IMG/VR virus record: IMGVR_UViG_3300020450_000095
Location: 1-23,225 of that record
Reading direction: 5' to 3' (one strand)
Length of the DNA: 23,225 nt
Origin: a virus
The position numbers were made by a program, and so were the translations under genes. Numbering within the stretch: position 1 is the stretch's first letter; the number at the start of each line of letters is the position of its first letter. Below the pieces are notes generated by a model. It was not told the origin of the DNA and ran no database searches. It saw only the letters and a list, made by a program, of their open reading frames with translations. Of the stretch, positions 2,204-19,427 are shown piece after piece.

Positions 2204-2781
2204 AATTTGTTGAGAGATTTTTAAGAGAAGTAAAAGGTGGACCTTGGCAGATTATAATGATAGGTGGACCAGGTTCAGGTAAATCAACTTACTCTAAATT
2301 TATAACAAAGCACTTTAATATACCACACATTTATACTGGTGATATGATGAGAGATTTATCAAAGAAAGATACACCAGACGGAAGAAGAGTAAAAAGATTA
2401 TTAAACCAAGGTAAATTTGCGCCAACAGAAATTGTTATGCGTGAGGTTATGAATAGATTAAAAAAACCAGACGCAAGAAACGGATATGTATTTGATGGTT
2501 TTCCTAGAAGTATGGAACAAGTAAGAGCAATGGATAAGAACAATATAGAACATAACTATATTATCAATTTACAAGTTTCTGAACAAGAAGTAATTAAAAG
2601 ATTGACGGCCAGAGGCAGAGCTGATGATAAACCAGAAACAATTAAACAAAGATTAAAAGAACACGAAAGACAAGTAGGTCCTGTTATCAAACATTATGAA
2701 GACCAATTAATAAATATTAAAGCTGAGGGTGCAGAACCAGAAGTTATAGCAAATAAAATTATAAAAAGAATAGAAAGATGA
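2200..2781 (+). CDS. Adenylate kinase family nucleoside monophosphate kinase
   Basis: This 193-aa protein would transfer phosphate from ATP to AMP or another NMP. The Walker A loop G-G-P-G-S-G-K-S-T is at residues 22-30, the NMP-binding T-G-D-M-M-R at 46-51, D-G-F-P-R at 99-103 (the adenylate kinase signature) and R-G-R-A-D-D with a following R near 138-151, the short-LID form. The start is a GTG at 2200 overlapping the previous TGA. Before the P-loop there is an unusual 20-residue extension, K-F-V-E-R-F-L-R-E|V, which ends in an L-x-E site like those cut by T4-type prohead proteases. An adenylate kinase in a late operon is unexpected if it only feeds replication; it may instead be virion cargo. 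The family call is firm, the cargo role is inference. Confidence 0.88.
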   Translation: MKFVERFLREVKGGPWQIIMIGGPGSGKSTYSKFITKHFNIPHIYTGDMMRDLSKKDTPDGRRVKRLLNQGKFAPTEIVMREVMNRLKKPDARNGYVFDGFPRSMEQVRAMDKNNIEHNYIINLQVSEQEVIKRLTARGRADDKPETIKQRLKEHERQVGPVIKHYEDQLINIKAEGAEPEVIANKIIKRIER

Positions 2782-3470
2782 AATCATTTAACGATATAAA
2801 ATATACAGAATTGAATGAGGGTTTATATGACCCTAATATATTCAAGGCATTTTTTCTTGCAGGTGGTCCAGGTTCTGGTAAAACATTTGTAACCAGAAGT
2901 GCTTTTGGTGGTACAGGTTTAAGAATGATTAACTCTGATAATGCTTTTGAAAATGCATTAAAGAAAAATAATCTATCTCTTAAAATGCCAGATAGTGAGG
3001 CAGAGGCTAGAGATATGATAAGAGCAAGAGCAAAGGCAACAACAGGTAATATTATGGATTTATCAATCAAAGGTAGATTAGGTATGATAGTTGATGGCAC
3101 AGGTAGAGATTATGATAAGATTAAAAGTCAAGTTGCAGAGTTAAGACAATTAGGTTATGATTGTTATATGATATTTGTTAACACTAGTTTAGATGTTGCG
3201 TTAGAAAGAAATTCTAAAAGAGAGAGAAGTGTACCAGAATATATTACAAGAAAATCTTGGGAAGCTGTACAAACAAATATAGGAAGATTTCAACATCTAT
3301 TTGGTATAGGTAATATGGTTGTTGTAGATAATAGTAAAGATGATAGAGAACTTACAACAATTGTTATGAGTAAAGTTGGTAAAGAAGTAAGAAGATTATT
3401 AGGAAATAAAATTAGGTCATACACAGCAAAAAGATGGATGGCTACAGAAAGAAAATTAAGAAGAAGATGA
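2778..3470 (+). CDS. P-loop kinase (polynucleotide kinase / zeta-toxin-like)
   Basis: This 230-aa protein has a Walker A motif G-G-P-G-S-G-K-T at residues 29-36, I-N-S-D-N at 51-55, a second strand ending V-D-G-T-G at 105-109, and an Arg-rich lid-like segment (R-N-S-K-R-E-R, 144-150). This pattern fits the PNK / zeta-toxin / chloramphenicol phosphotransferase group of kinases; the substrate cannot be read from sequence. The ATG overlaps the previous TGA by four bases. The first residues, M-K-S-F-N-D, resemble the T4 capsid-targeting peptide, and L-N-E|G at 12-15 is a good prohead-protease-type site; cutting there would release the kinase domain just before its first strand. The C-terminus is Arg/Lys-rich. 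It sits between adenylate kinase and the phosphatase/nucleotidyltransferase fusion. Confidence 0.82.
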   Translation: MKSFNDIKYTELNEGLYDPNIFKAFFLAGGPGSGKTFVTRSAFGGTGLRMINSDNAFENALKKNNLSLKMPDSEAEARDMIRARAKATTGNIMDLSIKGRLGMIVDGTGRDYDKIKSQVAELRQLGYDCYMIFVNTSLDVALERNSKRERSVPEYITRKSWEAVQTNIGRFQHLFGIGNMVVVDNSKDDRELTTIVMSKVGKEVRRLLGNKIRSYTAKRWMATERKLRRR

Positions 3471-6373
3471 GATTTAAAGACTTCATAGATATAGACGGTT
3501 TAAGACACGCAAAGATAGATGAGAAACCTGTTAAGAATTATAAAGGTGATTATAAAAAACTATCTATTGCAAAACCACCTTCTAATGGCAGTAATGCTAC
3601 TTATGATGAATTAAAAGAATTACAAAGTCTATTTAAAAAAAGAACACCTAAAATAGAGCAGAGTGTAAAAGACCACGATAGTAAAGTTGGTTTTGCAATA
3701 AAAGAATATCTAAAAGAAAATAAATTAGACTTTAAAGAGTCAGATGTTGATAAGATTGCAGATGTAGGTTCTGCTATTGTTAGACACTACAAAAATAAAT
3801 TTGAGAGACCAAGACCTTATCAATTAGCAGAAGCTATGAATATGAAATTTGATATTATGCCTTTAGAGAGTGATAGTATGAAGTCGCCAGCATATCCTTC
3901 AGGTCATAGTTTACAATCAAGATTAATCGCAGAGTATTATGCCGAACAATATCCTGAACATAAAAAAGGTATTATAGAGGCGGCTGATGAGTGTGGTATG
4001 GGTAGAGTATATGCAGGTTGGCATTATAAGTCAGACCATAACGCAAGTGTAAAATTAGCAAAAGAGATTTATCCTAATATTAATATGAAAAAAACATTTA
4101 AAGAAAGTATCATTGATATACCAAGACGTACATATGCGCCAGGTATATTTGATAATGCAGATACAGATAATCCTAGATTAAAACAAAGTATCATAGACAT
4201 TATAAAAAGTGATATGGAAAAACATATAGAAAAATATGGTAGTGTTGAAAGACTTACAATTATTGGTTCTGTATTAACAAAGACATATAGAAATGACGCA
4301 GATTTAGATGTAGATATTTTAATAAAACCAAACGCAATTGGTGAAGAAGATATAGAAAAAGTAAGAAAAGATTTAGTAGGTAAATTAATGGGTCAAGTAA
4401 ATGGTAAAAATATTCCTGGAACTACACACCCTATCAATTACTATTTACAAGTTGATAAACAAATTAGTGATGACCATTTAGCAAAAGCAGATGGCCATTT
4501 TGATATATTAAGTAATACATTTACAAGAGTACCTAATATTCCTAAATTTAATATTGATTTATACATAGAAGACTTTAGCAAAAAAATACAAGAGATAGAT
4601 ATTGTAAAAGGTGAATTAAAAAGAGACATTATAGATTATGATGAATTAAAAGGTTTGAGTGTTAATGATGTATTAAATTTACAAGAAAAAATTAAAGATA
4701 AGTTAGAAGAAATAGAAGATAGTATTAAGCTGATAAAAGATATTGGTGATGACTTATCTGATAAAAGAAAAGAAGTATTTTTAAAAGATATGACACCAGA
4801 ACAAATTAAAAAGTTTGGTGTTGCAAACAATATGCCTTCTAATGTTATCTATAAACTATTAGAAAAATATCACTACATAACTTTCTATAAAAAATGTAAA
4901 GAGATATTAGATGATGGCGTGGTTACAGACGCAGAGATTGATAGTTTAAAAGAGGCGAGAGGTAAATCTATTGCATTTAGTTTTGGTAGATTTAATCCAC
5001 CTACTATTGGTCACGAAAAACTAATTAACAAAGTTGCTAGTATTAGAACAGATGACTACAAAATATTTTTAAGTAGAAGTCAGGACCCTAGAAAAAATCC
5101 ATTATCGCCTAGAGATAAACTAGACATAATGAAAAAGATGTTTCCTAGACACGCAAGAAATATAGAAATAAACACTACAAATATGATACTAGATATTTGT
5201 ACAATGTTATATAAAAAAGGCTATAGCAACATAGTAATGGTTGTAGGTAGCGATAGAGTAAGAGAATTTGATACAATAATTAAAAAGTATAATGATGTAA
5301 AATCAAGACACGGATATTATAACTTTGAAAATATATCAGTTGTCTCTGCTGGTGAAAGAGACCCGGATGCTGACGGCGCTACAGGAATGTCAGCAAGTAA
5401 AATGAGAGCAGCCGCTTCAAATAAAGATATAGCGTCATTTAGAAGAGGTTTACCTAGAGGTGTTGACGCTGTTTCTATTATGAAAGCAGTCAGACAAGGT
5501 ATGAATCTAGCCGCTCAATACACAGGTGAGACTAGAGAAGTTGTAGCATTTAAAGACTTTGAACACCAACAAATAAGAGATTTATATATTAGAGAAATGA
5601 TATTTAATGTAGGTGAAAAAGTCAATTATGTTAAAGAAGATATTACTGGTAAAGTAGTTAGAAAAGGAACTAACTATGTTGTACTAGAAGATAATAAAAA
5701 CAATTTACACAAAGCTTGGATATGGGATTGTGTTCCTATATCAGCAGACAGAGAGGTAGAAGTGCGAGAATACGATACAGATGTTGACTATGGTTTCACA
5801 GCCGTATCAACGATAGAAGAAGATTTAGACGCTCAGCCACAGGATAAAGACGTTAAGAAAAAGAAAGGTACTCAACCTAAAAAATATTACAAAGATATGG
5901 ATAAGGGTACTAAAAACAAAAGAGCAGACTATTTCGCAAAAAAAGATACAACAAAAAATGATAACAAACCAGCACCAGGCGATAAAGGTGCTAAAACTAA
6001 ACCAAGTATTCATACTCAAAAGTATAAGAAGATGTTTGGTGAATTTAAGAATGAATTAATTAATAGGGTAAAAGAAAGTACAGATATTGGTAATGACTAC
6101 TACAAACACACGTCAACCATAACGCCAGGTGAACCAGATTATCCAGGTTTTGAAAACCCTACTTACAAACCATCACAACCAGGAAGTGGTGAAAACCCTA
6201 AAGTTAAGAGAGTTAAAGGTTTCTTGGAAAGAGAGACAGATAAACCCTCTGAAAAAGATATAAAAGAGTGGGCGGCTACAGAGTCCACAATGAATAAATA
6301 TAGGGAACGTTATAAAGAACAATGGGAAGCAAAGCTGAAAGAGGCTGTTGCTAAAATGATAGAGAAACTATAA
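3467..6373 (+). CDS. Multi-enzyme fusion: PAP2-type phosphatase, pol-beta NTase, TIGH nucleotidylyltransferase
   Basis: I chose the ATG at 3467 (ATGA overlap with the kinase stop) over 3434; this gives 968 aa starting M-R-F-K-D-F-I. Domain 1 (about 20-205) has all three PAP2 phosphatase motifs: K109-x6-R116-P117, P-S-G-H at 144-147, and R180-x5-H186-x3-D190. Domain 2 (about 220-480) has a pol-beta-type G-S at 267-268 followed by alternating Asp at 277-283, with a later D364. Domain 3 (about 497-690) is a nucleotidylyltransferase of the NMNAT/cytidylyltransferase type: G-R-F-N-P-P-T-I-G-H at 507-516 and M-S-A-S-K-M-R at 641-647. A small beta domain (about 710-760) and a Lys-rich disordered tail follow. 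Junctions carry a second M-K-K-T-F-K-E (207-213) and an L-K-E|A site at 494-497, consistent with proteolytic separation. Another L-K-E|A lies at 957-960. Confidence 0.85.
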   Translation: MRFKDFIDIDGLRHAKIDEKPVKNYKGDYKKLSIAKPPSNGSNATYDELKELQSLFKKRTPKIEQSVKDHDSKVGFAIKEYLKENKLDFKESDVDKIADVGSAIVRHYKNKFERPRPYQLAEAMNMKFDIMPLESDSMKSPAYPSGHSLQSRLIAEYYAEQYPEHKKGIIEAADECGMGRVYAGWHYKSDHNASVKLAKEIYPNINMKKTFKESIIDIPRRTYAPGIFDNADTDNPRLKQSIIDIIKSDMEKHIEKYGSVERLTIIGSVLTKTYRNDADLDVDILIKPNAIGEEDIEKVRKDLVGKLMGQVNGKNIPGTTHPINYYLQVDKQISDDHLAKADGHFDILSNTFTRVPNIPKFNIDLYIEDFSKKIQEIDIVKGELKRDIIDYDELKGLSVNDVLNLQEKIKDKLEEIEDSIKLIKDIGDDLSDKRKEVFLKDMTPEQIKKFGVANNMPSNVIYKLLEKYHYITFYKKCKEILDDGVVTDAEIDSLKEARGKSIAFSFGRFNPPTIGHEKLINKVASIRTDDYKIFLSRSQDPRKNPLSPRDKLDIMKKMFPRHARNIEINTTNMILDICTMLYKKGYSNIVMVVGSDRVREFDTIIKKYNDVKSRHGYYNFENISVVSAGERDPDADGATGMSASKMRAAASNKDIASFRRGLPRGVDAVSIMKAVRQGMNLAAQYTGETREVVAFKDFEHQQIRDLYIREMIFNVGEKVNYVKEDITGKVVRKGTNYVVLEDNKNNLHKAWIWDCVPISADREVEVREYDTDVDYGFTAVSTIEEDLDAQPQDKDVKKKKGTQPKKYYKDMDKGTKNKRADYFAKKDTTKNDNKPAPGDKGAKTKPSIHTQKYKKMFGEFKNELINRVKESTDIGNDYYKHTSTITPGEPDYPGFENPTYKPSQPGSGENPKVKRVKGFLERETDKPSEKDIKEWAATESTMNKYRERYKEQWEAKLKEAVAKMIEKL

Positions 6374-6720
6374 TGAAAACTTTTAAAGAATTTGAGAGCT
6401 ATGATAAAGAGTGTGATGAGTGTATATTTGAACACGAATCAGAGCCATTACAAGAGGCAGAATATCAAGGCAAGAAAGTCAAATTGAACGACCCGGTAAG
6501 AGGTGGTAGTAAAAAGTTTTATGTATATGTAAAGAACGAAAAAGGCAATGTTGTCAAAGTATCGTTTGGTGATACAACAGGTTTAAGTATTAAAAGAGAC
6601 GACCCGGCTAGACGTAAATCGTTTAGAGCGAGGCACAATTGTGATAATCCAGGACCAAAATGGAAAGCAAGATATTGGTCTTGTTACCAATGGAGAGCGG
6701 GAGCAAAGGTAAATAACTAA
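6373..6720 (+). CDS. Small basic Cys-containing protein with capsid-targeting-like leader
   Basis: The 115-aa product begins M-K-T-F-K-E-F, very close to the T4 internal-protein leader, followed by an acidic segment with C14 and C17 and then L-Q-E|A at 26-29, a near-ideal site for a T4-type prohead protease. The predicted mature part (29-115) is basic and holds R-A-R-H-N-C (85-90) and K-A-R-Y-W-S-C (98-104), a small domain I recall from marine T4-like phages and large DNA viruses; its function is unknown to me. The His/Cys spacing could bind a metal, but this is untested. Its ATG shares a base with the previous TAA and its TAA shares a base with the next ATG. Confidence 0.82.
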   Translation: MKTFKEFESYDKECDECIFEHESEPLQEAEYQGKKVKLNDPVRGGSKKFYVYVKNEKGNVVKVSFGDTTGLSIKRDDPARRKSFRARHNCDNPGPKWKARYWSCYQWRAGAKVNN

Positions 6721-9700
6721 TGACTAGTAGATACAGAAAATTAATGTCAGAGGCAATGGCAGAGGTAGAACTTAATGAAGTTGGCTACCTACAATCTAAA
6801 TTAAACGACAAACAAATTCAAAACATCAAAAAGATTTGGCAATTCAAAACTAAAAATGATGTGACCCCCGCTGTTATTAAAATGATTAAGAATATGGATA
6901 CTATTACTCAAGGTGCAATCAAAGACGCAGGTATAAAATACTTATCAGATATTGCTGAAAATAGTATTGTTGAGGGTAGAATGTCAGAGATAGACGCAAT
7001 GAGAAAAGCAGGTGCGTCAGCGGCTAAGATTGCAAAAGAATTAGGCATCGCTGTAAAAACGGTAAAAGCAATACTTGGCGAACAAGAAGTTGACTCTGCT
7101 CAAGATATGCAAGACATTAAACCTGCTAAAGAAAAAATAAAAGAAGATGAAGATAAAGATTTAGAAGAGTTTATTGATGATGTAAAAAACAATACACCTA
7201 ACTCTGAACAATTTGATGAAGAAAAGAAAAAGAAAAAAGATGATGTAGCACCAGATAATGATGTGCCTATTGAAGTAAAAGAACAAGAAGACCAATCTTC
7301 AGAAATAGATAAACTTAAAAAAGAATTAGAAAAAAGTAGAGAGCAAACGGTTGCTGTAAAACAAAAAGCACAAACAGACGCACAGAAACAAGCACAAAGA
7401 GCTAGAACAGCGCAAGATAAGATGGTTAATCCTGAAACAGGAGAACCATTATTACAAGTTGGTATTGCTTATAAACATCTAAAGCAAAAGATGGAAAAAG
7501 AAGCTGAAGCACAAAAGAAAAAAGAAGAATCAGGTAAGATTAAAGACCTTGCAAGTGATAAAAAAGATTTAGAAGAGTCAGCTGCTTCTGACAAAGCAAA
7601 AGCAATGGGTCTGAACTATATGAAATTTGGTCGTTATGGTAAAGATGGTAAGGTAACTCACAAAACTTCAGGTGATAATCTAGTAAAAGTAGGTAAAAAT
7701 GATGAACCAACAGATGACAAACCTGCCAAAAAACCTGACGAACCTAAAAAAGATACAGGTGGAGATAAAGAGTCCGATACAAAAATTAAATCTAGGAACT
7801 TTTTAAAAGACCTTGAAGACGGTAAACTAGAAACAAAAGACGGAGATACTATTGAGTTAGACTTTGATGATGAGTTTTCTTTTCAGGCTGCTATGGATAA
7901 AGCAAATGAAATGGGACTTTCTGACCTTGCAGATGACATTGAAAGTGTAGGTAGTTATGTTGCTGAAATGGAACCAGAAAAAGCACAAGCAGACTACCAA
8001 GATATGATAGCAAAATATTCTGGTAAAAAAGTTAAAGCATTAGAGTTTGCAAAAAAGGCAGATGAAGCTATTGATATGTTTAGTGATAGCGCTAGTGCTG
8101 ATGATAATTGGGGTGTATCACCAGGTAATGAGAGTCTTCATAGTGAAAATTTAAAAACCTTTAGGCAAGATTTAGCAAATACAATGAAAATTGTACAAAA
8201 AATGGTAGACTCTGATAAAACAGAGGGTAATCCTGGTTCAGGTATGTCAAATCCTTCTAAAGGTTTTAGACCTGAAGTTATAGAAACTATACAATCTTTA
8301 GAAAAAGTTTCATCACAACTTGATGAAATAAGAGATAACTTGGATGATAACTTGTCTGGTACAAATGTTGAAGAAGTAAAAGATATTATATCAGAAATAC
8401 AAGGTGAAATAGAATTTTGTACAGATGAAAATGCTGACCACGATGGTTATACTAAATCTTATAAAGTAAATAGCTCAATAGAATCTATACAATCATTAGT
8501 AAAAAAACTTAATCTAAAAAAGGTTAAACCTCCAAAAACAACAAAACTTCCTTCTGGAGAAACAATACAAAAAAATTTAGCAGACAAGATAACTGGGAAC
8601 GGTTATGTTGATGTTGACTTTGACGGTGAAGAACTTAAAATGTCCAAGGAATATGATTCTTCACAAGAGAAACAAGCTGAACAAGATATGAAAACAATTA
8701 GTGATTATCTAACAAAAAAAGGTGTTAAGTTAAATAAAGATGATATGGAGATTGAAAAAACTGATGATTACATAAAGATTACGGTAAATAAAAATGTTCA
8801 AAAAATGGATGAAAGTAGATTAGATTACGTAGGCAGGTTAATAATGGAAAAGAAATATAAAAATTTTAAAGAAGATTTAAACGAGGCAAAATATACTATT
8901 AATTACGAAGTAGATTCAGATAGTGGTGCTGATAATAGATATGTCGGCAATAGTGAAATGGACGTCAATGCTTCTAGTCCTAAGGATGCTGTTAAAAAGT
9001 TTGGTAATGAATTAAATAAAACGGTCAAACAAGCACAAGCAAGAGGGTCTAAATCTATTTTATCTGTATATATGAATTATATAGAGAAAGATGGCTCAAT
9101 GATTTCTGATAGAGAAGTTGATAAACTTAATGACTATGCAAGTGATTTGATTTACAAAGGAGTTTACGATTCATATATGAAAGACGATTTAGATAAGAAA
9201 GATGAACCTAAAGTTAAAGATGTAATTAAAGGTTTAAAAAAGGCAAGTGATTTACACAAACAACAACATCAAAAATTAACTAAAGCATTGAAAACAGAAA
9301 TGAAAAAAGATGACGCTTACGCAATAGGTATGGCGCAGGCTAAAAAAGTAATGAATGACGAACCACCTTTACAAAAGAAAACAATTAAAAAAGGTCACGA
9401 AATTGCAGATAAGATTTTAAAGAAAGAAGATGTTGATTTACAAGAGGCAGGTATCTCACCTCAAATGATTGCAACTCTTAAAAAAGAATACGAACCTTTT
9501 AGAGGTAAAAAGATTTCAGCTGCCAGAGCAAGACAACTTATGAATATTTTAAATAAGTTTAAAGACTCTGACTTACAAAAATTAGGTAAAGAAAACATAC
9601 CTTTTATTTCAAGTGGTTCAAGAAGTAAACTTGCAGTAAGAAATATGAAATTTACGGTAAAAAATATTCAATTCGGCGAAGAACTAGACGAAGAAATGTT

Positions 9701-10259
9701 TGAAGCTTGTTGGACAGGATATAAAAGAGTAGGTATGAAAAAGAAAAATGGTAAGATGGTTCCTAATTGTGTACCTGAAGCAATAGACCCTTTTATGATT
9801 TCTTATAGTAGATACGGTAAACACGCAGGCTTTGAAGGTGGTAAAACTTTACAAGACATACAAAAGAAAGCTCAAGAGTTGAGAAAGAAAGGTTTTACAA
9901 TTGATAAAATGGGTAGAAATAATCCACCTGTTAAAAAAGAAAATGCACCTAGCGAAGCTGATATAGAGAGGTTAAAAAAACAAGGTATGAAACCAAGAAA
10001 AGAACAAAAAGACCACCCAGCGGCTGCTGTATATGAAAGCATATCTGCTGTTAAAAAGAAGGCAGAAAAATCTGGTATGCCTTATGGTGTATTGAAAAAA
10101 GTATATGATAGAGGTATGGCAGCTTGGAGAGGTGGCCATAGACCAGGCGCAACGCAAGTACAATGGGCTTTAGCTCGTGTTAATTCTTTTGTAACCAAGT
10201 CAAGTGGAACTTGGGGTGGTGCTGATAAAGATTTAGCAAAACAAGTAAAAGGAAAATAA
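6720..10259 (+). CDS. Giant modular protein, candidate prohead-protease polyprotein
   Basis: This 1179-aa protein is acidic and Lys/Glu-rich in the middle and made of small modules. Residues 95-118 look like a helix-turn-helix (A-A-K-I-A-K-E-L-G-I). Residues 190-275 are coiled coil. Residues 290-325 hold an M-K-F-G-R-Y-G-K-D-G-K-V-T-H module. Residues 996-1020 form a 25-residue A-C-W-T-G-Y-K...C-V-P-E peptide, and the C-terminal about 75 residues (V-Y-D-R-G-M-A-A-W...G-H-R-P-G) match a phage domain I recall as DUF5824 (number uncertain). Candidate [LIM]-x-E cuts follow residues 11, 20, 85, 286, 722, 909 and 995, with V-P-E|A at 1020. A leader-like M-E-K-K-Y-K-N-F-K-E precedes the L-N-E|A at 720-723. 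The whole-protein function is unknown. It is coupled by TAATG to both neighbours. Confidence 0.8.
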   Translation: MTSRYRKLMSEAMAEVELNEVGYLQSKLNDKQIQNIKKIWQFKTKNDVTPAVIKMIKNMDTITQGAIKDAGIKYLSDIAENSIVEGRMSEIDAMRKAGASAAKIAKELGIAVKTVKAILGEQEVDSAQDMQDIKPAKEKIKEDEDKDLEEFIDDVKNNTPNSEQFDEEKKKKKDDVAPDNDVPIEVKEQEDQSSEIDKLKKELEKSREQTVAVKQKAQTDAQKQAQRARTAQDKMVNPETGEPLLQVGIAYKHLKQKMEKEAEAQKKKEESGKIKDLASDKKDLEESAASDKAKAMGLNYMKFGRYGKDGKVTHKTSGDNLVKVGKNDEPTDDKPAKKPDEPKKDTGGDKESDTKIKSRNFLKDLEDGKLETKDGDTIELDFDDEFSFQAAMDKANEMGLSDLADDIESVGSYVAEMEPEKAQADYQDMIAKYSGKKVKALEFAKKADEAIDMFSDSASADDNWGVSPGNESLHSENLKTFRQDLANTMKIVQKMVDSDKTEGNPGSGMSNPSKGFRPEVIETIQSLEKVSSQLDEIRDNLDDNLSGTNVEEVKDIISEIQGEIEFCTDENADHDGYTKSYKVNSSIESIQSLVKKLNLKKVKPPKTTKLPSGETIQKNLADKITGNGYVDVDFDGEELKMSKEYDSSQEKQAEQDMKTISDYLTKKGVKLNKDDMEIEKTDDYIKITVNKNVQKMDESRLDYVGRLIMEKKYKNFKEDLNEAKYTINYEVDSDSGADNRYVGNSEMDVNASSPKDAVKKFGNELNKTVKQAQARGSKSILSVYMNYIEKDGSMISDREVDKLNDYASDLIYKGVYDSYMKDDLDKKDEPKVKDVIKGLKKASDLHKQQHQKLTKALKTEMKKDDAYAIGMAQAKKVMNDEPPLQKKTIKKGHEIADKILKKEDVDLQEAGISPQMIATLKKEYEPFRGKKISAARARQLMNILNKFKDSDLQKLGKENIPFISSGSRSKLAVRNMKFTVKNIQFGEELDEEMFEACWTGYKRVGMKKKNGKMVPNCVPEAIDPFMISYSRYGKHAGFEGGKTLQDIQKKAQELRKKGFTIDKMGRNNPPVKKENAPSEADIERLKKQGMKPRKEQKDHPAAAVYESISAVKKKAEKSGMPYGVLKKVYDRGMAAWRGGHRPGATQVQWALARVNSFVTKSSGTWGGADKDLAKQVKGK

Positions 10260-16824: not shown

Positions 16825-17598
16825 ATGAAGAGACTATTAATTGGTCTTTTGTTATTCTTCACTATGGGACTTCAACAAGTCGCTTGGGCTGACACTACCT
16901 CTAGCGGGGCTACGACTAACTCACAAACTAATACATCAGGAAGTAATACCACTATATCAGGTGGGTATTCGCAAGAATCTACCACTACATATCAAAGCGG
17001 TTCATCTTCTAACACCACATCTACAACTAACAATAATTCATACTCTGGCGATACAAGAGTTACCTCTCAATCATCAGCACCTAGTATGTCAGCAATGTCG
17101 CAAGACCTTTGCGTAGTAGGTATGTCAGGTGGTATATCAACTTTTGGTGTAGGTGTATCAGCAGGTTCATATAGAACAGACGAGAATTGTGAACGTATCA
17201 AGTTATCTAAAGTCTTAAATGACCTTGGTATGAAAGTGGCTGCTGTATCAATTTTATGTCAAGACCCTAGAGTGTTCTTTGCAATGGAACAATCAGGTAC
17301 ACCTTGCCCATTTGAAGGTAAAATTGGTAAAGCTGCAACTGAACAATGGAAAAAATACGACAAGTTAAGACCAGATTATGACCAGTATGTCAAGAATTTA
17401 AAAGTAGTTGAGAAAGCAAATAAAGAAGAAGCAAAGAAACTAGAAAAAATTAGATTAAAAGAATTAGAAGAAGTACAAAAGAAATTAAAAAAACTAGAAG
17501 AAGAGAAAGCAAGCAATGAGTGGAATGAAGTTGATAAGGCAGTTGAGAAAGAGAACGCTCAAAAAAAAAGCCTTATGAAACAAAATCCACCGAAGTAA
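16825..17598 (+). CDS. Exported Ser/Thr-rich protein with four-Cys domain
   Basis: The 257-aa product has a classical signal peptide: M-K-R, a hydrophobic core (4-19) and A-W-A|D at 20-23. A Ser/Thr/Asn-rich disordered stretch (24-92) follows, then a compact domain (about 93-170) with four cysteines (C96, C122, C145, C161) and the pattern G-G-I-S-T-F-G-V-G, E-N-C-E-R-I-K-L-S-K and C-Q-D-P-R-V-F, and finally a Lys/Glu-rich coiled coil (about 195-240). Four Cys in an exported protein suggest two disulfides in the periplasm. I recall similar cysteine domains in marine phage proteins with no function. AGGA at 16811-16814 is the ribosome binding site. Confidence 0.8.
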   Translation: MKRLLIGLLLFFTMGLQQVAWADTTSSGATTNSQTNTSGSNTTISGGYSQESTTTYQSGSSSNTTSTTNNNSYSGDTRVTSQSSAPSMSAMSQDLCVVGMSGGISTFGVGVSAGSYRTDENCERIKLSKVLNDLGMKVAAVSILCQDPRVFFAMEQSGTPCPFEGKIGKAATEQWKKYDKLRPDYDQYVKNLKVVEKANKEEAKKLEKIRLKELEEVQKKLKKLEEEKASNEWNEVDKAVEKENAQKKSLMKQNPPK

Positions 17599-17608
17599 AG
17601 AATAACCG

Positions 17609-17737
17609 ATGGATCCTATTACCCTTAACCTTATTATTTGGATTGCCCTTTTAACATATGTGCCTTACAAATTATACAAAAAGATTGATAGCTTCGCTGA
17701 CGATATTAACCCTTACAACTTTAGTAAGCGTAAATAG
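17609..17737 (+). CDS. Candidate overlapping small membrane protein (42 aa)
   Basis: An ATG at 17609, eleven bases after the previous stop, opens 42 codons ending in TAG at 17735-17737. The product has a hydrophobic helix (about 5-18, T-L-N-L-I-I-W-I-A-L-L-T-Y-V) and a polar basic tail (K-L-Y-K-K-I-D-S-F-A-D-D-I-N-P-Y), typical of a small type I/II membrane protein. Its last 80 bases overlap, in a different frame, the region coding the signal peptide of the next gene. It fills the gap exactly and would explain how the next gene, which lacks a visible ribosome binding site, is translated. Real dual coding is plausible but unproven. Confidence 0.5.
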   Translation: MDPITLNLIIWIALLTYVPYKLYKKIDSFADDINPYNFSKRK

Positions 17738-19427
17738 TCTAGCAGAAACAGCTACATCTGGAAACCTGTTACCTAATGCAGGTGATGGTCAATCATCTTT
17801 TCAAAACACAACAGATAACTTAGCACCTGATAAAGTAGGTAGTGGTTCAGGTTTTACCATTGATAGTGGTATTCAAGCATTTGCAAAAGAACTAGAGGCA
17901 AAAGGTGAGGGTATTGTATCTGATACTGGTTCTCTAGTAGGTATTTCAACAACAACACAATCAGGCAATTCATTTACAACTACAACGGATAGTTTAGATG
18001 GTGGTGTTACCTTAAACTCTATAACAGAGGTACAGAATTGCGAATGGACTTCATCAAGTTATAGGTGTGGTCAGGCAAGTCAAGGTGGTGGTCAAAGAGA
18101 TACTTACACTAACACAATTAAGATAACAGATTCTAATGGTAATCTTCTTGCAGTAACCACGTTTACTAGAAACAATGACGCTGGTTATAATTCAAATACA
18201 CACACATATACAGACACGGTAACAAACACTTTACCAGGTAGCAGAAACTATGAATGGGAGTGGAAAGGTACAGATGGTGGTAATACAAACTCTACTGCCT
18301 CTATTGGTCCTAATTTATTAGGTGCTAGTTTAACTGCCACACTATTAGATATAAATTACTCAGCTATCTCTGAAGAAACAGAGGAAGAATTAGAATTTGC
18401 AAACGAACAATTAGAATTATCACAGGAAACTATTGAAGCTGCAATTGAAGAATTAGAAAATATTAATTTAACAGAATTAACAGAAATAGAAACGTTTGAA
18501 TTTGCACCACAATTAATAGAGATAGAAGAAATACAAGAATTAAAAATAGAAGAGATAGAATTTAAAGCATTATTTGAAGTTAATTTTAAAAGTATATTAA
18601 AAGAAGAGAACTTAATAGAAGAATTTGGAACTGCCTTAATAGAAGAGAACTTAACAGAGGAAGAATTCTTTGAAGAGGCAACTAATATGATAATAGAAGA
18701 GTTAAAACCAATGGGTATGATTAAGGAGGAAACTAATGTATCTACAATGACGGCACCAAAAGAGGAAATAATAGAAGAGACCCCAACTGAAGAACTTAAA
18801 GAAGCAAAAAAAGAAGAACTAAAGGAAGAGGAACCAAATGCTATTAATGAAAAACCTACAAATGAAACCGTTAAGACAGAGAAAACTATGGATACAAATG
18901 AAGAGGCAACAGAGCAGGAAGGACAAGAGAGCGAAGTTGTATCTAATGAATCAGAATTGGCTGAAGATAAGGAAACAGAAGGACAAGAGGAGACGGCGAG
19001 TGCTGGCGAAACTTTGGAAAATGAGACAGATGTATCTGTCAAGGACAGGAAGATTACCACTACCGACATTGACAGCATAGGTAAAAAAGTAGAAAAGATT
19101 ATAGAAAAGATAACTGCTAAATTAAAAAGAGTTGACCAGCAGTTAGCTGCGACCTCATTTATTCTATCAAAAGGAATGAATGAATTAGCACCAGACTTAA
19201 CAGCATATAAGAACAAAAAGTTAGATGGTGGTTCAATACCAGATGGTAACCTAGAGTTTTTACAAACAATAAATATTTTAGAACAGCAACAAATATACAA
19301 AGAGGCAAGTTTAAACGCCTATATATCAAATGACCCTATTGCTGTTCAAATGAATGCTCTAGCTAGGGTGTCAACACGAATAAATACTTTACAGGCAGAA
19401 ATAGCTGCCTTGAAATCATTACAATAA
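17658..19427 (+). CDS. Large exported acidic protein with C-terminal coiled coil
   Basis: The 589-aa product has a signal peptide (basic n-region to R9, hydrophobic core 10-25, S-L-A|E at 27-30). Residues 30-225 are Thr/Gly/Ser-rich, beta-like, with C128 and C137 as a possible disulfide. Residues about 235-460 are an extreme Glu-rich region with imperfect repeats such as E-E-N-L-I-E-E-F and E-E-N-L-T-E-E-E-F. Residues 475-589 form a helical C-terminal domain (I-G-K-K-V-E-K-I-I-E-K-I, later S-N-D-P-I-A-V-Q). The start has no Shine-Dalgarno; a TTG at 17685 is an alternative. I recall related C-terminal domains in marine phages. The function is unknown; the acidity and length suggest an extended periplasmic or surface protein. 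Confidence 0.78.
   Translation: MCLTNYTKRLIASLTILTLTTLVSVNSLAETATSGNLLPNAGDGQSSFQNTTDNLAPDKVGSGSGFTIDSGIQAFAKELEAKGEGIVSDTGSLVGISTTTQSGNSFTTTTDSLDGGVTLNSITEVQNCEWTSSSYRCGQASQGGGQRDTYTNTIKITDSNGNLLAVTTFTRNNDAGYNSNTHTYTDTVTNTLPGSRNYEWEWKGTDGGNTNSTASIGPNLLGASLTATLLDINYSAISEETEEELEFANEQLELSQETIEAAIEELENINLTELTEIETFEFAPQLIEIEEIQELKIEEIEFKALFEVNFKSILKEENLIEEFGTALIEENLTEEEFFEEATNMIIEELKPMGMIKEETNVSTMTAPKEEIIEETPTEELKEAKKEELKEEEPNAINEKPTNETVKTEKTMDTNEEATEQEGQESEVVSNESELAEDKETEGQEETASAGETLENETDVSVKDRKITTTDIDSIGKKVEKIIEKITAKLKRVDQQLAATSFILSKGMNELAPDLTAYKNKKLDGGSIPDGNLEFLQTINILEQQQIYKEASLNAYISNDPIAVQMNALARVSTRINTLQAEIAALKSLQ

Follow-up and report, generated by a model that had tools for sequence, protein, structure and literature searches.

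A three-enzyme fusion protein with leader-derived motifs at its domain junctions, a possible modular head cargo, in a virus related to Pelagibacter myophages

The DNA analyzed here, hereafter the window, is the 23,225-nucleotide stretch at positions 1 to 23,225 of IMG/VR virus record IMGVR_UViG_3300020450_000095. It encodes a 968-residue protein in which a PAP2-like phosphatase, a nucleotidyltransferase (NTase) and an NMN adenylyltransferase (NMNAT)-like enzyme are joined behind an N-terminal leader. By sequence comparison, junction 1 (PAP2/NTase) is a fossil leader and junction 2 (NTase/NMNAT) corresponds to the end of one. On balance, we favor the view that the phage head carries this protein as modular cargo, which grew at its leader end and is probably cut by the prohead protease at junction 2 and perhaps at junction 1. 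SAR11 phages rank among the most abundant viruses, and to our knowledge the cargo injected together with their DNA is almost unknown. The features of the fusion open reading frame (ORF), all on the plus strand, are listed below; an arrow marks a putative cleavage position.

3467–6373: fusion ORF of 968 aa (leader, PAP2, NTase, NMNAT-like domain and a poorly predicted C-terminal tail)
3467–3487: N-terminal leader MRFKDFI, similar to the T4 capsid-targeting sequence (CTS)
3554–4081: PAP2 or class A acid-phosphatase-like domain, catalytic motif intact
4085–4111: fossil internal leader MKKTFKESI, residues 207–215, the N-terminus of PAP2-less relatives
4097–4108: junction 1 motif FKE↓S in a predicted linker, non-canonical with F at P3
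4115–4912: pol-beta-type NTase domain
4946–4957: junction 2 motif LKE↓A, residues 494–497, a candidate prohead-protease site in a predicted linker
4961–5737: TIGH nucleotidylyltransferase, NMNAT/NadR-like, PHROG 3041/395
6335–6346: C-terminal LKEA, residues 957–960, not conserved and in a predicted helix

The three-enzyme composition proposed in a first-pass annotation of the window, made from its sequence alone, was confirmed. The first domain matched PAP2 in Pfam (E 1.3e-7) and class A acid phosphatases in the PDB (E 4e-7), and its signature KX6RP / PSGH / (G)RX5HX3D was unbroken in every relative spanning the domain, with G in place of S in the last motif, SRX5HX3D. In the NTase, the IGS...DADxD motif is conserved and the match to the pol-beta fold was weak (Z about 7). 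The third domain, which contains GRFNPPTIGH, matched the PHROG cytidyltransferase family (E 2.6e-67) and has a NaMN/NMN adenylyltransferase fold (Foldseek, NaMN adenylyltransferases, E 5.6e-5). No peptidase family, zincin-like ones included, was found among the domain matches of the fusion ORF. Each domain alone had been thought to be known in phages; this held for the third, whereas tblastn searches of 50,697 phage records detected no relatives of PAP2 or the NTase. Peptide patterns, which detect close relatives only, revealed no PAP2 relatives in bacterial genomes, and a sequence profile of the fusion family searched against the PDB gave nothing useful. The fusion ORF starts with an ATG at 3467 that overlaps the TGA ending the kinase gene upstream; an alternative ATG further upstream, at 3434, would give a product of 979 aa.

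Previous studies showed that T4 gp21 cleaves after L/I-X-E and that the first 10 residues of T4 IPIII are a CTS sufficient for packaging, in which residues 4 and 7 target the protein and residues 8 and 10 steer its cleavage, which is blocked by Asp at position 10 (PMC9026906). The ipII/ipIII leader in the T4 record reads MKTYQEFIAE↓A and that of ipI reads MKTFKEFTSTTTPVSTITEA; mature IPI has 76 residues (PMC3012670), which fits a cut after ITE. The N-terminal leader of the fusion protein conforms to the M-K-x-F/Y...F pattern, as do those of its relatives (MKTFKES, MRFKDFIKES, MKKFREIIES). Both pelagiphages Mosig and HTVC008M encode the protease, and FLSE↓A stands at the gp23-like position of the Mosig major capsid protein.

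Among 80 IMG/VR relatives, many aligned only from residue 205–213 or so onward. These PAP2-less relatives, from many pelagimyophage contigs, start at the internal leader (MKTFKESIIDIPRR), carry I-x-E↓S there, and directly follow the same kinase gene and the same ...KKIKKK stretch as the fused forms. The kinase, a P-loop protein encoded directly upstream of the fusion ORF (2778–3470, plus strand), is the common upstream neighbor of PAP2-bearing, PAP2-less and NMNAT-only (HTVC008M) forms. One pair of contigs, L010 with PAP2 and L036 without it, shares 99.7% identity over 10.3 kb on the downstream side and 99.3% over 853 nt on the upstream side, the difference being essentially one in-frame module of ~0.6 kb. 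In a tree of the NTase/NMNAT part, the presence of PAP2 requires 12 changes, at least nine of them forced by starred branches, with gains and losses being indistinguishable. Thus, MKKTFKESI was correctly recognized in the first-pass annotation as a former N-terminal leader. The accompanying idea that two genes fused by loss of a stop codon found no support: PAP2 was fused in frame in all complete PAP2-bearing cases and a separate gene in none, and it behaves as an in-frame insertion/deletion module. Five PAP2 frames that appeared non-fused were merely truncated by contig ends. PAP2-less relatives also include hybrid leaders such as MRFKDFINESIIDIPRR, which would be expected if leaders act as recombination points. 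In addition, L183 and L189 have another short N-terminal module (KVDGKYKLVSKKGKNLGTYDTKK...) in the place of PAP2, before ESIIDIPRR and with its own leader, MIKRFKE.

The same comparison bears on two further explanations. The removal of a stop codon by an error in assembly or sequencing might be suspected in a 23-kb viral contig, possibly a fragment, but the same in-frame fusion occurs in 40 open frames on many independent contigs, which refutes it and leaves its probability negligible. It is also very improbable that translation starts internally, at the ATG at 4085, and that this, instead of proteolysis, yields the separate products. Although this ATG is the start codon of the PAP2-less relatives, none of 14 distinct fused cases (e.g. 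ATTTATCCTAATATTAAT) has a purine-rich tract ahead of the internal Met, whereas N-terminal starts are mostly preceded by AAGAAGAAG-like tracts. Moreover, the Met is lost in L004, L010 and L194 and is replaced in fused relatives reading, for example, KLRKSFQES or NLRESFKES. Since it is replaced in some relatives and lacks a purine-rich tract, it is not a maintained start site, and an internal start was rejected; it would also leave junction 2 unexplained.

At junction 2, LKE↓A lies ten residues upstream of GRFNPP. The start of the stand-alone Melnitz homolog, MKKFSEIIEARGDTAVFTFGRFNPP (MKKFSEIIE↓ARG), aligns with the window sequence SLKEARGKSIAFSFGRFNPP, and HTVC008M has a leader-bearing nucleotidylyltransferase directly after the kinase gene, with neither NTase nor PAP2. 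The motif before the third enzyme, read initially as a protease-like site, is thus matched to a leader end and is kept as [LIMV]xE↓A in linkers that are otherwise variable (22 to 190 residues between NTase and NMNAT). As for the domains occurring as separate leader-bearing genes, this was found for NMNAT alone (Melnitz, HTVC008M) and not for PAP2 in any complete case. A motif [LIVMF]xE[ASG] was present 6–16 residues before GRFNPP in 24 of 31 distinct linkers (shuffled mean 2.2, maximum 7), a test that overstates independence because the linkers share a common origin. In a set of 50 unique sites, likewise not independent and selected for an E with A/Q/D/S/G directly after it, P3 was L, I, M or V in 42 and P1' was Ala in 45, with 12 different residues at P2 and Glu encoded by GAA or GAG. 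Some relatives have extra modules at junction 2. Most of these are flanked at both ends by E↓A or E↓S, as in L128, L176, L189 and L196, and also in L160 and L183, where the first motifs are weaker. Two of the inserted modules had no match in reference phages.

It is possible, although unlikely, that the chain is packaged via its N-terminal leader and stays whole, the junction motifs being unused fossils of former leaders. Junction 1 is indeed non-canonical and partly decayed in relatives (RKSFQE, DKKLSE, VLKD), the N-terminal leader of the fusion has no cut site, and polyvalent proteins such as the N4 virion RNA polymerase reach the cell without being cut (PMC5512222). On the other hand, junction 2 keeps its E↓A through synonymous codon changes and free drift at P2, and motifs of this type occur at the borders of inserted modules. 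Cyanophage homologs with a distant leader have no EA at this position, so that the fold seems not to require it.

Several observations weigh against the cleaved-cargo reading that we favor. The fused form begins with MRFKDFIDIDG, without Glu, and no L/I-x-E site directly follows MRFKDFI because DID comes next. At junction 1, P3 is F instead of L/I, leader decay is also seen in DKKLSES and VLKDS, and the fused relative L024 has Asp at P1 (VLKD↓S), a residue that blocks processing of T4 IPIII. The junction 2 motif is absent in some linkers (L024, L039, L174, L197). The fusion ORF contains four [LI]xEA motifs against 0.53 expected in shuffles (P 0.0015); two of these, LAEA at 120–123 and IIEA at 169–172, sit within the PAP2 fold, and therefore motif presence alone proves little. 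It is the comparative evidence, rather than motif counts in a single sequence, which exceed chance only mildly, that carries weight. An AlphaFold2 model built with 49 sequences was of modest confidence (mean pLDDT 63). In this model, confidence was low at residues 208–220 and 480–497, which coincide with the two junctions and are predicted linkers. A position inside folded domains would have counted against the first-pass reading; MKKTFKESI and the junction 2 LKE instead fell in these low-confidence linkers. LAEA 120, IIEA 169 and the C-terminal LKEA were modeled as helices. The last of these had also been proposed as a cut site. Its letters are present, but most relatives have KL-x-E/D-V there (KLKEVV/KLSEVV), and with the predicted helix this led us to reject it.

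Whether the protein reaches the head at all also has to be considered. A homologous citidylyltransferase (T4-GC190) was detected in virions of the cyanophage S-SM1 (PMC3037559), and its name and core status point to the family of the third domain; by homology, the fusion protein may be packaged too. This finding argues against a cytoplasmic metabolic fusion serving NAD or nucleotide metabolism, never packaged, whose leader-like N-terminus would be coincidental or serve expression. The presence of adenylate kinase and deoxyribonucleotidase genes in the same cassette fits such a role, as does the restoration of NAD+ in infected cells by phage NadR/NadM enzymes (PMC9503650). Nevertheless, given the match of the leader to the T4 CTS and the concentration of leaders in the cassette, we consider a purely cytoplasmic function improbable. 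Leader-type starts were found in 6 of 28 window ORFs versus 0 of 130 internal Met positions, an enrichment for the window, and in HTVC008M four of five fall within the matching cassette.

In the mechanism that we propose for a cleaved head cargo, the T4-type N-terminal leader would bring the entire chain into the prohead core. Stepwise growth at the leader end may have led from NMNAT to NTase+NMNAT and then to PAP2+NTase+NMNAT, an order that is plausible because Melnitz and HTVC008M have a leader-bearing NMNAT without NTase or PAP2. Every added module would have been inserted, in frame, where the older gene had its leader or cut site; the fossil leader at junction 1 and the leader tail (LKE↓A) at junction 2 would be what remains of these. 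Cleavage by a gp21-type prohead protease is probable at junction 2 (after residue 496) and possible at junction 1 (after residue 213); the separate, presumably active enzymes would then be ejected with the DNA. These observations suggest that packaged enzymes are exchanged in such phages in the manner of cassettes strung on a cleavable chain.

Such a system is a variation on the T4 internal proteins and overlaps conceptually with polyvalent proteins (PMC5512222). T4 IPI/IPII/IPIII and Alt share with the window protein a leader of the type M-K-x-F/Y-x-E-F and a cut motif L/I-x-E↓A, and they are ejected with DNA, as we propose here. However, each T4 internal protein is a small single protein, and in Alt the cuts lie only close to the termini (PMC9026906), whereas the window protein has several enzymes per chain, leader-derived motifs at internal joints and exchanged modules. 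Polyvalent proteins are likewise multidomain, combine unrelated catalytic domains including pol-beta NTases, are predicted to be delivered with DNA, and were likened to polyproteins by Iyer et al. 2017 (PMC5512222). They often, though not universally, embed a zincin-like peptidase, which was not found here; in the window protein, the prohead protease would act in trans, and the motifs lie at the module joints. Head proteins of phiKZ and SPN3US are also processed C-terminal to Glu by a gp21-like protease (PMC5694885, PMC10052503), but the processed parts are propeptides, not linked enzymes, and the SPN3US motif is A-x-E. The cyanophage core citidylyltransferase (T4-GC190 / PHROG 3041, 395), homologous to the third domain, has leaders such as MKRYTNFLSEA and MKKFSAFLTEA; the examples examined have a different module after the leader and are not fused to PAP2 or NTase. 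PHROG 455 joins the same nucleotidylyltransferase domain to another partner, DUF6267, which in the window is a separate gene. No description of modular prohead-protease polyproteins was found in the open literature library that was searched.

Four further features of the window are as follows.

810–2027: separate gene for a DUF6267 protein
6373–6720, plus strand: 115-aa ORF with leader MKTFKEF
6720–10259, plus strand: modular 1179-aa ORF with MSE↓A at its N-terminus, LNE↓A, VDLQE↓A, EEMFE↓A, CVPE↓A and AVYE↓S
9438–9449, plus strand: LQE↓A motif of the 1179-aa ORF, the site of a 90-aa insertion in L209

The 1179-aa ORF, whose N-terminus is MTSRYRKLMSE↓A, looks like a second cargo polyprotein. 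Its relatives (L198–L218) differ strongly in length and have modules that are absent, extra or in another order; the module borders repeatedly carry motifs (EEMFE↓ACWTGY...VPNCVPE↓A, AVYE↓S, VDLQE↓A). Compared with L205, L209 (3755–4060) has a 90-aa in-frame insert flanked by duplicated KEEVDLQE↓A, the flanks being an exact 27-nt direct repeat that encodes KEEVDLQEA. Because this neighbor repeats the pattern, modularity is not peculiar to the 968-aa gene. We advance, more tentatively than for the fusion protein itself, the idea that head-packaged enzymes of pelagimyophages are modular polyproteins with one leader, in which enzyme and binding modules meet at gp21-type cut sites, are gained and lost in frame there, and are cut apart in the prohead before DNA packaging. 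If so, they would be the phage equivalent of the polyproteins of eukaryotic viruses, with the head protease acting in trans; a single leader could deliver many enzymes, module swapping at cut sites would be a general route of innovation, and the motif rule would allow cargo boundaries to be predicted from sequence. The C-terminus of HTVC008M gp130 (L105 5971–7761), NSFVTKSSGTWGKADADLAKQVRG, matches that of the 1179-aa ORF, suggesting transfer of a DUF5824-type module between these two cargo genes.

The right part of the window (the primase/nrdA end) is close to Pelagibacter myophage Mosig (80% identity). The Mosig record matches this part only and ends nearby, and was unusable for comparing the cassette; in HTVC008M, the counterpart of the cassette lies between the primase-helicase and primase/nrdA genes. 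The first seven residues of the 115-aa ORF are the same as in T4 IPI, and this ORF falls in PHROG 7595. The DUF6267 protein contains VKWDGAP, which recalls the KxDG motif of nucleic-acid ligases and nucleotidyltransferases; a sequence search for solved relatives found none. Finally, in the Mosig-matching part, two proteins (16825–17598 and 17658–19427) have hydrophobic, signal-like N-termini, the second being Glu-rich, and secreted or envelope functions are possible for both.

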